Origin: Brevibacillus sp. | Lineage (GTDB): Bacteria; Bacillota; Bacilli; Brevibacillales; Brevibacillaceae | Assembly: GCA_017656235.1 (NCBI GenBank) | Contig: JACDOF010000004.1 | Coordinates: 1-64,000 of the forward strand | Direction of reading: 5' to 3' | Length of the DNA stretch: 64,000 nt | Shown: one piece after another, positions 4,064 through 52,415 of the stretch | Numbering within the stretch: the stretch's first letter is position 1 | How the letters are laid out: each line of letters opens with the position of its first letter | Position numbers and translations under genes: made by a program | Notes under the pieces: model-generated | Told to the model about the DNA's origin: nothing | The model's database searches: none | Seen by the model: only the letters and a program-made list of their open reading frames with translations

Positions 4064-4253
4064 TGTGATGTATCTTGATCCGTACCAAAATGGTTATGAA
4101 CAGCAGCATCAGGGTATACACATAGTAAAGACCGACAGGTGCTGCACCACCTGACGGCCCTGTACAATAGTCGTTCCACCGGACGGGGCGGCTCGCATGT
4201 GCAGGCAAGGTGACCTCCCTGCTCCGTCAAGCAACAAGGGAGGTCACTTTTTT
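4064..4253 (+). ncRNA. Candidate antisense antitoxin RNA (RatA/SR-like)
   Basis: A transcript of about 190 bases is predicted between the promoter at 4029-4057 and a strong terminator at 4210-4255. It has no convincing coding frame. Its 3' part is complementary to the end of the toxin mRNA running on the other strand; the predicted overlap is about 120 bases. This is the arrangement of txpA/ratA and bsrG/SR4 in B. subtilis. The RNA is inferred from sequence signals only. This also accounts for the 337-base gap between vanW and the toxin gene. Confidence 0.5.
4132..4157 (-). terminator. Possible terminator of the toxin mRNA
   Basis: On the minus strand CCGTCAGGTG pairs with CACCTGTCGG around a 6-base loop, followed by the weak tail TCTTTACT. 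It would end a toxin transcript of about 250 bases. Confidence 0.45.
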
Positions 4254-4255
4254 TT
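4210..4255 (+). terminator. Strong intrinsic terminator of the antisense RNA
   Basis: An 11-base perfect stem, GTGACCTCCCT (4210-4220) with AGGGAGGTCAC (4237-4247), is followed by eight T on the + strand. It overlaps the toxin stop codon. Confidence 0.8.
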
Positions 4256-4324
4256 GGCTGAGAACAGGAGTACGATCAGTGTGCCAAATGCGAACATCAG
4301 ACTAAATGCCTCGTACACTGTCAT
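4244..4324 (-). CDS. Small hydrophobic type I toxin (BsrG/TxpA/holin-like toxin family)
   Basis: A 26-residue peptide begins MTVYEAFSLMFAFGTLIVLL and ends in FSAKKK. The MTVYE start, single hydrophobic segment and lysine-rich tail match the short membrane toxins of Bacilli: B. subtilis BsrG begins MTVYESL and ends QKKK. An excellent ribosome site, GGGGGTGA, lies 5 bases before the ATG. An extended -10 promoter lies about 70 bases upstream. Such peptides act at the cell membrane and are controlled by an antisense RNA, for which signals are present on the other strand. At 26 residues it is shorter than BsrG (38), TxpA (59) and BsrE (30). Confidence 0.75.
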   Translation of the reverse strand: MTVYEAFSLMFAFGTLIVLLFSAKKK

Positions 4325-4395
4325 GGCTTCACCCCCTTTCATGCGGGGATGAGCCGACTCTGTCCTCAAGGAGCCGAGTCTATTGTACATGGTAA

Positions 4396-13311: not shown

Positions 13312-13352
13312 TGGACCGGGTGTGGTTGCTCCGCTTGACCGCTGCGGCAGGT

Positions 13353-13478
13353 CATCCTCTCCGGGGATGGGGCAGTCGTGCATCTTTGCTGGTCAGGAAG
13401 CAGCGCGAGCAGGACTTTTAGCACCTTCAGGGACACTTTGTCTACAGCTAAGGCCATCCTCTCCGGGGATGGCTTTTC
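13353..13478 (+). repeat. Interspersed repeat copy A between duplicated clpX terminator hairpins
   Basis: The 18-base hairpin CATCCTCTCCGGGGATGG occurs at 13353-13370 and again at 13455-13472; only the second is followed by T-rich sequence (CTTTTC). Between them lies the conserved right arm of the repeat family, from CATCTTTGCTGG (13381) to TTTGTCTACAG (13447). It shares GCAGCGCGAGCAGGAC and the GGGACACTTT-TCTACAG end with the copy at 19.9 kb. The left arm of the family is missing, so this looks like a truncated copy. The region fills most of the 239-base gap after clpX. Confidence 0.75.
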
Positions 13479-17698: not shown

Positions 17699-18298
17699 AT
17701 GAAAATAACATCGGCAGATTTTGTGGTAAGTGCGGTGGCACCCAATCAATACCCGACGGACGGCTTGCCTGAGATCGCCCTTGTGGGCCGATCCAACGTC
17801 GGCAAGTCGTCGCTGATCAACAAGATGTTGAACCGAAAGGCTTTGGCCAGAACCAGTTCAAGGCCGGGCAAAACGCAGACGCTGAATTACTTTCGGATTA
17901 ACGACGCGCTGTACTTTGTCGATTTTCCCGGTTATGGCTACGCCAAGGTTTCCAAGGCACTGAAAGCCCAGTGGGGCAAAATGATCGAAACGTATCTGAC
18001 CAAGCGGGAGCAGCTGCAGTTTGTCATCCAGTTGGTCGACATCCGTCACCCTCCCAGTAAGGACGATATTGCCATGTACGAGTGGTGCAAACAAATCGGA
18101 CTGCCCACCGTTGTCGTTGCGACCAAGGGGGACAAGATTGCACGCGGGCGGTGGCAGCAGCACAGCAAAGTGATCCGCCAGGCACTTGGTCTTCGTGACG
18201 GGGACACGTTACTCGTCTTTTCTTCTGAAACCGGACAGGGGCGTGAGGAGTTGTGGGCAGAGATTCACAACCGCCTTGCCTTGAAGGGGGAGGCATGA
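17699..18298 (+). CDS. engB: Ribosome-biogenesis GTPase EngB/YsxC
   Basis: An essential small GTPase needed for assembly of the 50S subunit. G1 GRSNVGKSS (near residue 31), the G2/G3 region ending in [11 protein letters not shown]4 ATKGDK (near 146) and G5 FSSETGQG are all present in 199 residues. It follows lonA by one base, as ysxC follows lonA in B. subtilis, and overlaps the next gene by four bases (ATGA). Confidence 0.96.
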
Positions 18299-19671
18299 GC
18301 ATAACCGCTTGCTTTTCGCTGCGGGGTGTAATCGAAGGGTTTTACGGCAAACCCTGGTCTCAGCAGGAACGGCTGGGCATGATCCCGTTTCTGGCTGCCC
18401 ATCGCTATAATGCGTACTTTTACTCGCCTAAAGACGATCCGTATCTGCGTGAGCATTGGCAGGAGCCGCATCCGCCAACGCAGCTTGACCACTTTCGGGA
18501 ACTGATCGCCTTGGCTCGGGAAAACGGACTCATGTTTTTTTTCTGTCTAAGCCCCGGGCTGCAGCTGGAATACGGCAGTGAGGCTCATTTTGCCCGACTG
18601 GTGGAAAAGTATCGGCAGCTTTTTGAACTGGGCTGCCGCCACTTCGCGCTCTTGTTTGACGATATACCAATGGCGTTGATGCATCCCGACGACCGCCGCC
18701 GATTTGCCCATCTGGCGGAAGCTCAGGTGGACATTACCCGTCGGCTGTGGCAGGTGCTGGGGGAGTGGATGGAGGAACCAAGCCTGGTAATCTGCCCGAC
18801 CCAGTATCACGGCTTGGGCAATGAGCCTTATATCGTTTACCTGGGTCAGCACCTTCCGAAAGAAATACCAATCTTTTGGACCGGTCGGTTTGTGTGCTCA
18901 CCGTACCTGACCGAAGGGGATGCCCAGTTCTTTGCACGGCAGACCGGCCGACGCCCGCTCATCTGGGACAATTATCCGGTCAACGACCTGGGAATGGCTG
19001 ATGAACTGCACATCGGTCCGCTGCTCAACCGCGATCCGGGGTTGTATCGTCATGTCAGCGGGTTCGTGTCCAACGTGATGGAACTGGCGGAAAGCTCCAA
19101 GATTCCGCTGATTACCGTTGCCGAATACCTCGTCGCTCCTGAACAGTACGATTCGGAAGCGGCGTGGCGGCGGGCGATCGGAGAGGTGATAGGAGAGGAA
19201 GACACGGCTTCGTTCCTGATGTTCGCCGACAATGTACGCGGTTCGTTTTTGAACGACAGGGAGGCACCGCGGTTGATGGAGACACTGCTGCAGTTCCGCT
19301 ATTCGTTCTTGTACGGCGACCGGACGGAGGCTGTGCGCGGCTTGCAGCACTTCTTTCGGGAAATGGAACAAAACGCATCCCGGCTGCTCGCCGGAATGCG
19401 CAATCAGCGGCTTGCCCGTGAGGTGCGGCGTTGGCTGGTGAAATACTGGCATTGGGCCAAGGTGGGGCTATCTGCCACCGCCCTGATCGAAGAAGGGATC
19501 AAAGGCAGGACAGCCCGGGCCGCTTTCCACCTGCTGGGACTAAAGCGCTTGCTCAAAAAAACGGAGCGCATCCCGGCAAAGGTTTGCGGCAATGTGATGA
19601 AGTTATTTGTTGGTTCCGTTTTGCAAGAAGCGACAAGACGGGGCTATACCGCTCGCAAACAGGAGGACTAA
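18295..19671 (+). CDS. GH84-family beta-N-acetylglucosaminidase (O-GlcNAcase-like)
   Basis: A glycoside hydrolase that should remove beta-linked N-acetylglucosamine by substrate-assisted catalysis. It opens with [13 protein letters not shown] and [10 protein letters not shown], both hallmarks of GH84. The catalytic aspartate pair is in LLFDDI (about residues 121-126). Substrate-pocket stretches FWTGRFVCS and IWDNYPVND follow. It has 458 residues, no signal peptide and no carbohydrate-binding module, so it should act in the cytoplasm, perhaps on muropeptide or chitin sugars. I chose ATG 18295, which overlaps the engB stop codon and has GGGGGAGG upstream. Its coupling to an essential ribosome-assembly GTPase is odd and is absent from the B. 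subtilis locus. True protein O-GlcNAc activity is not implied. Confidence 0.87.
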
Positions 19672-19673
19672 AC

Positions 19674-19977
19674 GCCGGAGCAGATGTGCTGCTCCGGTCA
19701 GACTGAAGACAAACCCGTTTTCCAGGGAAGGGTGCCAATTGTCCGTAACGAGCGCCTTTGCCTGGCCAACCGAGCTTAAGAAACGTGGACGCGGGGAGAA
19801 GCGAGGGCAACTCGGCGCTGCGCTGAGTTGCTGAGCCGGTTTGCCCTCGCCCCCGCGGATCGTTTCGCAGCGGGCATTTGTACATCTTTGCTGGGCAGGC
19901 AACAGCGCGAGCAGGACAATAGGCCCCTTCGGGACACTTTATCTACAGTCTAGCCGGAGCAGACGTGCTGCTCCGGT
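19674..19977 (+). repeat. Interspersed fold-back repeat copy B, flanked by a 25-base hairpin repeat
   Basis: The hairpin GCCGGAGCAG-ATGTGC-TGCTCCGGT at 19674-19698 recurs with one change at 19953-19977. Between them 254 bases fold on themselves: ends AGACTGAAGACAAA and TTTATCTACAGTCT are inverted; GGGTGCCAATTGTCC pairs with GGACAATAGGCCCC; GCGAGGGCAA pairs with TTGCCCTCGC; the tip is CAACTCGGCGC/GCGCTGAGTTG. The right arm matches copies A, C and D. The element fills most of the 397-base gap between the GH84 gene and the M42 gene. No coding frame in it is credible. Confidence 0.8.
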
Positions 19978-20068
19978 GTCATGTTTTGGAGGGCCCTTTT
20001 TCAGAAAGTTCCCCGTTGACATAGACGACCTCCGTCATGGTCATCCTACCTCTAAGGAGGGATGGTGG

Positions 20069-21205
20069 ATGGATCAGGATCTACAGTTGATGAAAGAGCT
20101 TACGGAAGCGGCAGGTCCTCCTGGCTTGGAAGTACGCATCCACAACGTGATGCGCCGCTATCTGGAACAACAGACGTCGCATATCCTGAGTGACAACCTC
20201 GGCAGCCTTGTGGGCTGTCTGGGGGAAGGCGGCCCGCGTATCCTTCTGGCTGCTCACATGGACGAAGTGGCCTTTATGGTGAGTCACATCACCCGGGACG
20301 GATTTTTGCGTCTGCAGCCGTTGGGCGGCTGGTGGGGACATGTTATGCTGGCGCAGCGGGTGCATGTACTGACGCGAAAAGGAGACCTGACCGGGGTGAT
20401 CGGCTCCAAGGCGCCTCATGTATTGTCGGTTCAGGAGCGGAAAAATGTACTCGACATCGAAACCATGTTTGTCGACATCGGTGCTTCCAGCAGGGAAGAA
20501 GCGGAAATGTTCGGTGTTGAAGTGGGCGATCCCATCGTTCCGATTTGCCCGTTTGAGGTGCTGCCCAATCCGCGTATGCTGATGGCCAAGGCCTGGGACA
20601 ACCGGGCGGGCTGCTACGTGGCACTCAAGGTACTGGAGAGACTGCGGCGGGAACATCACCCGAACACAGTCTTCGCGGGGGCCACGGTACAAGAAGAGGT
20701 GGGACTGCGCGGGGCCCAGACGTTGGCCCATACAGTAGATCCCGACGTTGCGTTCGCCCTGGATGTCGGCGTGGCCGGGGATACGCCGGGAATGAATCAG
20801 AAAGAAGGACATAGCCGGCTGGGAGCGGGCCCCTTGCTGGGGTTTTACGACAACAGCATGATTCCCCACCTCAAACTGCGAGACCTGGTCATCGAAACGG
20901 CCAAAAAACAGCGGATACCCTACCAGATTGACCTGATGCCGGGCGGGGGCACCGACGGGGGGAAAATCCACACCGCAAACCGGGGCGTGCCGACCATGGT
21001 CATCAGTGTGGCGGCGCGCTATATTCACAGCCATGTCTCCATCGTGCACCGCGACGATCTGGAACATGCAGTCCGGTTGTTGGTGGAATTGGTCAAACAG
21101 CTTGATGAAAGCACTGTCAATCGGATCAAAGGTCTCGACCGCCGGGGAGGCAGGCCGCAAGAAGAAGGGGAAAAACGGCTGGAACGGGAGCCCAGCTACG
21201 TGTAA
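20069..21205 (+). CDS. M42 family glutamyl/leucyl aminopeptidase-like metallopeptidase
   Basis: A cytoplasmic two-metal aminopeptidase of the tetrahedral (TET) M42 group, which trims peptides from the N-terminus. Ligand regions are AAHMDEV (near residue 67), KAWDNRAG (near 175), the catalytic QEEVGLRG (near 208), ALDVGVAGD and the final YIHSHVS (near 318). 378 residues. I chose ATG 20069 because AAGGAGG lies 8 bases upstream; the longer reading frame leftwards runs through the repeat and is not used. A 69-residue gene follows in the same direction. Confidence 0.92.
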   Translation: MDQDLQLMKELTEAAGPPGLEVRIHNVMRRYLEQQTSHILSDNLGSLVGCLGEGGPRILLAAHMDEVAFMVSHITRDGFLRLQPLGGWWGHVMLAQRVHVLTRKGDLTGVIGSKAPHVLSVQERKNVLDIETMFVDIGASSREEAEMFGVEVGDPIVPICPFEVLPNPRMLMAKAWDNRAGCYVALKVLERLRREHHPNTVFAGATVQEEVGLRGAQTLAHTVDPDVAFALDVGVAGDTPGMNQKEGHSRLGAGPLLGFYDNSMIPHLKLRDLVIETAKKQRIPYQIDLMPGGGTDGGKIHTANRGVPTMVISVAARYIHSHVSIVHRDDLEHAVRLLVELVKQLDESTVNRIKGLDRRGGRPQEEGEKRLEREPSYV

Positions 21206-24250: not shown

Positions 24251-24509
24251 GCAATCTGAATACAAAGTGAGTTCAGACAGAAGAGCGGCCCATTTCCGAA
24301 CGAACGACTTTGCCAACCATCCAAGCGGAGCAAGCCCGAAGCGGGAGTATACGGGCGCAACTTGACAAACATCACAGCAGAGCTGCTTTTGCGCCCGCCC
24401 GCTTTGGGCTTGCGAAGCGGACAGTCCAGCAGCATGGGGTGGTTGGCAACGGAGTGAGGAGAGGAAAATGGCCGCCTCCCTCTATCCAAACACCTTTGTC
24501 TGCAATCTG
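24251..24509 (+). repeat. Interspersed fold-back repeat copy D
   Basis: The 8-mer GCAATCTG stands at 24251-24258 and 24502-24509. Between them the sequence folds as one long imperfect hairpin: CAAAGTG with CACCTTTG, GCGGCCCATTTCC with GGAAAATGGCCGC, GCCAACC with GGTTGGC, AAGCCCGAAGCGGG with CCCGCTTTGGGCTT, and GGGCGCAA with TTGCGCCC. The right arm aligns with copies A-C (GGCAAC..GAG..GGAAAATGGCC..ACACCTTTGTCTGCA). The element lies just after the chemoreceptor gene and explains most of the 445-base gap before katA. Confidence 0.75.
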
Positions 24510-24534
24510 GACCCGGAGCTTGCTCCGGGTTTTC
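24510..24534 (+). terminator. Terminator following repeat D
   Basis: ACCCGGAGC and GCTCCGGGT form a 9-base stem with a 2-base loop, followed by a short T-run. Probably the terminator of the chemoreceptor gene. Confidence 0.75.
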
Positions 24535-46433: not shown

Positions 46434-46760
46434 TAGATGATAGAGCGAACACAAGAAAATGCGATGACTGGGAAGAGTAAGCCGTTTCGGCCTTGGCAGA
46501 GAGGGAGAATCGTCTGCTGCGAGATTCTCTAAGGCGCTGGCGGTTGAAGGTCGCCCATGAGCAGTTCCGGTGAATGCGGCCCGCTGGCCTGGCCATGGGA
46601 TTAGCCGGAACCGGCAGACAGCCGTTATCGACAATGAGGGAGCGCGAGAACAACCCAAACCGCTGGATGCGGCTTATTCGGACGGGCTCGTGCTAACAAA
46701 GGTGGTACCGCGAAACGACTCCTTTCGTCCTTTGGATGAAAGGGGTTTTCTTATTTTTTA
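46434..46760 (+). promoter_or_regulatory. T-box riboswitch controlling valS
   Basis: A leader of about 330 bases. The T-box core AAGGTGGTACCGCG (46699-46712) pairs with uncharged tRNA 3' ends. The leader start contains GACTGGGAAGAGTAAG, typical of the stem I base. A terminator, CTCCTTTCGTCC with GGATGAAAGGGG and then a T-run (46719-46759), competes with the antiterminator. Uncharged tRNA-Val is the expected effector given the gene it controls. I could not assign the specifier codon with confidence. It fills the 432-base gap before valS. Confidence 0.92.
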
Positions 46761-52277: not shown

Positions 52278-52415
52278 TGTTGAAACCATACAGGGAACCT
52301 GTGACAACCCGCCGTACATGGCGGCCATCCAAGCGGACCCCCTTTGTCTAAATGCTGGCCAGGCAGCAGCGAGCAAAACAATGGGCACCTCGGGACACAT
52401 TATCCCCATGTTGAA
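52277..52415 (+). repeat. Interspersed repeat copy C, after murC
   Basis: The 8-mer ATGTTGAA at 52277-52284 (overlapping the murC stop codon) recurs at 52408-52415. Between them, GGCCAGGCAGCAGCGAGCAAAACAAT... (split: GGCCAGGCAGCAG, CGAGCAAAACAATGGGC, ACCTCGGGACACATTATC) aligns with the right arm of copies A and B. GGCCATCCAAGCGGA at 52321-52335 matches the AACCATCCAAGCGGAGC of copy D. The inner part is shortened. It accounts for about half of the 249-base gap before comC; the rest shows nothing I recognise. Confidence 0.65.

Follow-up and report, generated by a model that had tools for sequence, protein, structure and literature searches.

The 254-bp element at positions 19699–19952 (+ strand) of the window, that is, of the 64,000-nucleotide stretch of Brevibacillus sp. 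contig JACDOF010000004.1 analyzed here, is very probably a non-coding MITE (type A) that a DDE transposase of the IS1182 family, with DNA hairpins as its insertion sites, mobilizes in trans. As shown by the flanks of resident copies, insertion duplicates the target hairpin; the duplication spans 15–31 bp in the ISs, has no fixed length, and is symmetric about the hairpin axis. Flanks vary between the copies in the genome.

The focal copy lies directly 3′ of the stop codon of a 472-codon ORF (18253–19671), and 3′ of it, at 20072, starts a gene that we take to encode an M42-type peptidase. It is short (254 bp) and carries no transposase gene. The terminal inverted repeats are 15 nt long: the left one (19699–19713, + strand), CAGACTGAAGACAAA, is one base away from the consensus end CAGAYTGCAGACAAA, and the right one (19938–19952, − strand) reads TTTATCTACAGTCTA on the + strand, its reverse complement TAGACTGTAGATAAA matching the left end at 12 of 15 positions. 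The central stem of the fold-back structure (19801–19850, + strand) is formed by arms at 19801–19821 and 19830–19850. A 25-nt target hairpin borders the element on each side, at 19674–19698 and 19953–19977 (both + strand); the two duplicates are identical at 24 of 25 positions and were the only family reported among direct repeats of at least 12 nt in positions 19500–20150. Their local alignment score is 23, and a score of 16 or more was reached by one of 1332 shuffled flank pairs; the focal hairpin duplication is not due to chance. Folded as single-stranded DNA, the element with both hairpins has a predicted energy of −96.3 kcal/mol (mean of 100 shuffles, −56.3; z = −9.6), none of the shuffles folds as well, and the predicted stems are nested. 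The fold-back element between duplicated hairpins described in the first-pass annotation, which was made from the letters alone, is therefore real. Its description as the best-preserved copy does not hold, as other copies, e.g., L006 with its identical 24-nt hairpins, are better preserved.

So strong a fold might also belong to structured RNAs or terminators that act in cis and are retained for their function, with the duplication as a by-product of selection or recombination. We regard this as extremely unlikely. Among 11 copies of the type A interior, two of the 76 predicted consensus pairs are changed on both sides, but the covariation term is close to zero, many copies are partial or mosaic, and the ends are those of an IS. 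In a search of 39 genomes with the focal element (E ≤ 0.001), 37 had no match, and only the genome of origin and G011, from the same family, matched. Rfam, applied to the window at gathering thresholds, reported only a T-box and BsrG, with no match on the element. The modelled interior fits a fold-back transposon, and a conserved RNA function gets little support.

The BsrG match lies at 4132–4387 on the − strand (78 bits; gathering threshold, 55) and is a possible type I toxin–antitoxin RNA. The T-box leader (46455–46735, + strand; 108.6 bits) is directly upstream of a long ORF that presumably encodes a valyl-tRNA synthetase. Another ORF, at 1468–2958, which we take to encode a large serine recombinase, perhaps marks the edge of an integrated element.

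The genome of origin, a 3.6-Mb draft in 31 contigs, is rich in related copies. With the limit at E ≤ 10, the type A query gave at least 43 matches, including two whose E exceeded 1, and queries with two other MITE types bearing the same kind of terminal repeats gave at least 56 and at least 40, both limited to E ≤ 1e-6; for the three queries, the best 40 of 77, 133, and 110 first-look candidates were scored. When the two weakest matches (E above 1) were excluded and the others merged within 300 bp, 137 of the 139 matches fell into at least 88 places covering 26.6 kb, which is a lower bound. Terminal inverted repeats and many copies, as expected of a MITE, are thus both present. Fairly recent movement is suggested by L001 and L002, two copies at different sites whose sequences agree completely (100%) over 231 bp. 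Close-set MITE matches also form clusters, at C10:89454–90452 and C11:46214–46898 (L130, L131).

Many copies lack the left part, and several match the right arm only, from about positions 150–190. Copying by target-primed reverse transcription was considered on this ground and rejected; we give it next to no credence. The inverted repeats at both ends are those of DDE ISs, and some copies in the genome combine arms of different types: certain right-arm-only matches are such mosaics with another left arm (L037 at the place of L023, L115 at the place of L030). The right-arm-only match of L018 is an internal deletion, and the Rfam matches in the window at gathering thresholds are the T-box and BsrG only.

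The terminal repeats connect these MITEs to a family of autonomous elements. The consensus end CAGAYTGCAGACAAA is common to the MITEs and to the ends of IS1182-family ISs in relatives, and the exact end CAGATTGCAGACAAA of two MITEs in the genome of origin, L037 and L117, is that of IS1182-family ISs in G001, a genome of the same genus. One transposase of G001 reaches 491 bits with the NCBIfam model NF033551 (IS1182 family; cut-off, 270) and contains the domains DUF772 and DDE_Tnp_1_6. An IS1182 origin of the MITEs is consistent with this match in terminal repeats. In the 31-contig draft of the genome of origin, PF05598 had no match, PF13751 had none above its cut-off, and NF033551 reached at best 26.8 bits (cut-off, 270), so that a cognate transposase was not found there. 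The weak transposase-profile matches of this genome lie at transposase genes of contig C12. Loci matching PF01609 were tried as parents and rejected: there are only two in the genome, both on C12, and when terminal repeats were sought 800–2600 bp apart around them, neither locus had such a pair, the best candidates having 9 or 10 mismatches in 30. The open piece of one C12 transposase is nearest to IS5 (255 bits; cut-off, 275). Because no IS1182 transposase scores above the cut-off in this genome, we infer the helper from relatives; it may have been lost or missed, or may lie in a gap of the draft or in other strains.

The ISs of relatives give the clearest view of insertion. Forty IS1182-type loci were fetched, 30 of which had an end pair with at most eight mismatches and the other 10 no such ends; after exclusion of L181, for which no right end matched, and of L203, whose ends lacked credibility, 28 ISs from eight genomes were kept. 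A perfect direct repeat of 15–31 bp flanks 22 of these 28, and one of 756 shuffled pairs scored as high. By genome, the duplication was found in 7 of 12 ISs of G001, 3/3 of G014, 3/3 of G036, 4/4 of G018, 3/3 of G045, 1/1 of G053, 1/1 of G054, and 0/1 of G024; at L188, the 18-bp repeat stands 2 nt away from the element. These repeats are palindromic: in 20 of the 22, the best palindrome has the same centre as the repeat (with ties broken towards the centre), and symmetric positions can pair in 174 of 195 cases (89%), compared with 25% in nearby windows. Symmetric pairing of at least 60% was seen in 21 of the 22 duplications and in 129 of 4400 control windows.

Six of the 28 ISs had no duplication by the rules used. 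The single shuffled pair that matched combined the left flank of L168 with the right flank of L169, neighbouring G001 ISs with exchanged flanks. These two (G001:C1 2307700–2317900) are about 6 kb apart, and the left hairpin of one recurs as the right hairpin of its neighbour (score, 26), a sign of recombination between IS copies. Some of the non-duplicated cases, in ISs and MITEs, are due to such exchanged flanks (L168/L169), to indels (L175), to decay, or to wrongly assigned ends (L098, L119).

MITEs in the genome of origin show the same tendency with more noise. From 117 end pairs, 61 passed a coverage and mismatch rule, and 37 copies of 105–704 bp remained after removal of overlaps; some of them are composites or have wrongly chosen ends, and L098 and L119 were kept as misses even though another end pair gives a clear duplication. 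Flank alignment scores of at least 10 were obtained in 15 of the 37, compared with 30 of 1332 shuffled pairs (2%), and scores of at least 16 in 9 of 37, compared with 1 of 1332; by the rules used, 22 of the 37 had no duplication. Type A copies adjoin differing hairpins, with the same hairpin on both sides in L001, L005, L006, L008, and L010. The genome-wide search and flank alignment called for in the first-pass annotation thus yielded many other copies with hairpin duplication. The palindrome and duplication centres coincide in only 5 of 10 of these MITEs. A folding energy of −8 kcal/mol or lower (RNA energies) was predicted for 41 of the 74 stretches of 32 nt beside element ends and for 53 of 370 control windows; the DNA adjoining element ends is more structured than neighbouring DNA.

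A few hairpin pairs differ between the two sides of the element. In L117, from the genome of origin, and in L175, from G001, the stem is conserved between the two hairpin copies and the loop differs (GTTTT and AGTTGT in L175). Such pairs could reflect selection on stems or error-prone hairpin repair; the bias towards intact stems is weak when pooled over 10 MITEs of the genome of origin (changes at 9 of 152 stem positions and at 6 of 67 other positions). In L110, also from this genome, the side hairpins differ in sequence and have a central ATGATGAT in common; either a duplication that has diverged or two terminators of separate origin may account for them.

Further copies occur within the window itself. 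After clpX, a left hairpin copy (13350–13369), a type A MITE without its left part (13370–13449; 83% match to element positions 174–250), and a right hairpin copy followed by TTTTCT (13452–13473) stand in succession on the + strand; the hairpin–element–hairpin pattern reported here in the first-pass annotation is confirmed, in a copy that lacks the left part of the element. In G001 and G002, both of the same genus, the site after clpX has a single hairpin and no element. At the focal site, these two genomes lack the element and also the hairpin, so the comparison there shows only that the element is absent. A type C MITE with the same kind of terminal repeats occupies 24252–24509 (+ strand); a hairpin at 24511–24530 adjoins its right end, and no left hairpin copy was seen. 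A decayed remnant of a type A right arm lies at 52353–52404 (+ strand).

In G011, from the same family, both ends were recognised at 25 of 30 MITE loci, whereas each of the remaining five (L267, L270, L271, L272, and L275) lacked a recognised end. A duplication of 18–29 bp flanks 18 of the 25 and, by the rules used, is missing from seven; it was matched by 7 of 600 shuffled pairs. These seven pairs are L261/L259 and six pairings among L277, L285, and L287, i.e., tandem arrays that share a hairpin. In the latter array (G011:C1:656420–657347; order L287, L285, L277), three MITE copies stand in a row with the same hairpin between them, suggesting repeated insertion into a duplicated hairpin. Target duplication in the MITEs is therefore documented by 15 of 37 copies in the genome of origin, by 18 of 25 in G011, and by the single clpX hairpin in two species of the same genus. 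The contrary outcome considered in the first-pass annotation, namely other copies with neither flank duplication nor a preference for terminators, is not what was found, as duplication recurs in the genome of origin, in G011, and in the ISs.

The relation between hairpin and duplication was examined at 36 rebuilt empty sites, restricted to insertions with an ungapped duplication scoring at least 15 (L277, L285, and L287 share one hairpin), and the strongest hairpin of each site was sought without reference to the duplication. It fell on the duplicated stretch, with both edges within 6 nt, in 34 of 36 sites (random placement, 999 of 7200; 14%), and its edges were within 3 nt in 28 of 36 (random placement, 390 of 7200). 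At 32 of 36 sites, the two offsets between hairpin and duplication edges are exact mirror images. Hairpin and duplication lengths are correlated with r = 0.48 (p = 0.003) over all 36 sites and 0.48 over the 22 ISs alone; the value is 0.61 without two outlying sites, in a set of 34 selected for lying close to the duplication. In many cases the cut is a few A:T pairs inside the longest stem that could form, or slightly outside it. Symmetry about the hairpin is thus strong and the following of its length moderate, and the cut is not always at the stem foot.

On straight DNA, the distance between its two active sites normally gives a DDE transposase a target duplication of constant length. A long stagger, roughly constant in size, at sites flanked by A/T, with terminators hit as abundant and accessible intergenic places, would agree with several features of the ISs: 16 of 22 duplications are 20–25 bp long, 19 of 22 begin with A, runs of four T or A occur at the hairpin in 18 of 22 targets, and the length correlation is only 0.48. 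We consider this explanation unlikely, since duplications range from 15 to 31 bp, their edges are mirrored about the hairpin axis at 32 of 36 sites, and 4 of 22 targets have no A/T run.

The closest precedent points in another direction. In the available text on IS1272 and TnSha1, of the IS1182 family, transposition replaces a stem-loop: all or part of the hairpin is lost, and the target is not duplicated (PMC5678879; PMC4923244). Most targets there are hairpins, which vary in sequence; several are confirmed terminators, several lie just downstream of genes, and a few insertions are inside genes (PMC5678879; PMC4923244). Were the same to happen here, the flanking hairpins would be two unrelated, pre-existing terminators on either side of a replaced one. 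The shared IS family and type of target (PMC4923244; PMC5678879) speak for this, as do the differing hairpins on the two sides of L176, L192, and L110, but we judge it very unlikely: the same hairpin flanks 22 of 28 ISs and 18 of 25 G011 MITEs, whereas the IS1272 papers, in their available parts, report no duplication, and for every copy with identical flanks the flanks themselves contradict replacement. The elements described here resemble IS1272 and TnSha1 in transposase family and in hairpin targets, and differ in that the whole hairpin is duplicated rather than deleted.

Which property of the hairpin is recognised is a separate matter. The first-pass annotation had argued for a mechanism that targets terminators, and this holds in part: hairpins are duplicated and most of them (18 of 22 IS targets) are terminator-like, but the hairpin is the better candidate for recognition, as 4 of 22 lack a T or A run. 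At the focal site, a consensus scan for terminators scored the right hairpin copy and not the left; because the 14 sites that it scored in the region are close to the 12.0 (sd 3.1) of shuffled sequence, the terminator label is weak there. Terminators are probably the commonest intergenic hairpins. The target is probably the hairpin itself and not termination as such.

Other mobile elements share single traits with this family. Class C group II introns are alike in that their insertion sites directly follow intrinsic terminators, but as retroelements they have an RNA fold and lack inverted repeats, and Rfam at gathering thresholds gave no group II match in the window. REPINs depend on RAYT, a Y1 (HUH) transposase that makes no target duplication, and the duplication seen here argues against membership in that group. 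ISfinder gives the IS1182 family a wide range of direct-repeat lengths, and a hairpin-duplicating mode may be noted elsewhere, for example in that database. Closer relatives are IS1182-derived MITEs such as MITEPye1, which is intergenic, can fold into long stem-loops, and has IS1182-type ends (PMC11578231; PMC3852290). In the available text of these sources, direct repeats of such MITEs are 4 bp long or absent, and their copies are few, with 1–3 in P. yeei chromosomes and 7 and 14 in M. acetivorans (PMC11578231; PMC3852290). The elements described here are likewise small and non-coding with IS1182-type ends, and differ in their occurrence at at least 88 places and in their hairpin-long duplication.

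That some IS1182 members target palindromes has been reported (Siguier et al., 2015, as cited in PMC5678879 and PMC4923244). Beside the model of hairpin removal by IS1272, PMC5678879 also draws duplication of the whole stem-loop, by attack at the 5′ feet, as a possible pathway b, for which the available part of its Discussion gives no example. In the open-licence literature on such elements, as far as its text is available, a hairpin-long duplication is not described (PMC4923244; PMC3852290; PMC3281130; PMC11578231; PMC10969869; PMC4438569; PMC5678879). Measured against these sources, hairpin targeting by IS1182/IS1272 elements is known, and what is new is the natural duplication of a whole hairpin, previously only a hypothetical pathway.

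The arrangement of ends and flanks leads us to infer cruciform extrusion, joining at the 5′ feet, and an IS1182 transposase as helper. An IS1182-family transposase supplied in trans would act on the terminal repeats of the MITE, and the element would be joined at the 5′ feet of the extruded hairpin, which would duplicate the hairpin in full and leave the edges of the duplication symmetric about the hairpin axis. Because most such hairpins are terminator-like, the host gene would retain an intact terminator and the insertion would do little harm. Each duplicated hairpin would in turn be open to a new insertion, and a second hit would give rise to tandem hairpin–element arrays.

On balance, we lean towards a broader reading of these comparisons, in which a clade of IS1182-family transposases would gauge its target by the shape of the DNA: with the element joined to an extruded cruciform at the 5′ feet, the hairpin, and not the enzyme, would dictate the duplication (15–31 bp), and every insertion would rebuild two hairpins, which are possible terminators and new targets. 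Such a self-renewing, low-harm strategy could have led to the hundred or so MITE copies and to the tandem hairpin–MITE arrays at gene ends.

With the duplication laid on the hairpin, the cruciform recognition proposed for IS1182-type transposases becomes testable with natural substrates from many sites, and the pathway of whole-stem-loop duplication drawn in the available text of PMC5678879 gains natural examples. If the proposal is true, it would suggest how terminators can be crowded by such elements while gene expression stays intact, and tools for insertion at gene ends might become conceivable.
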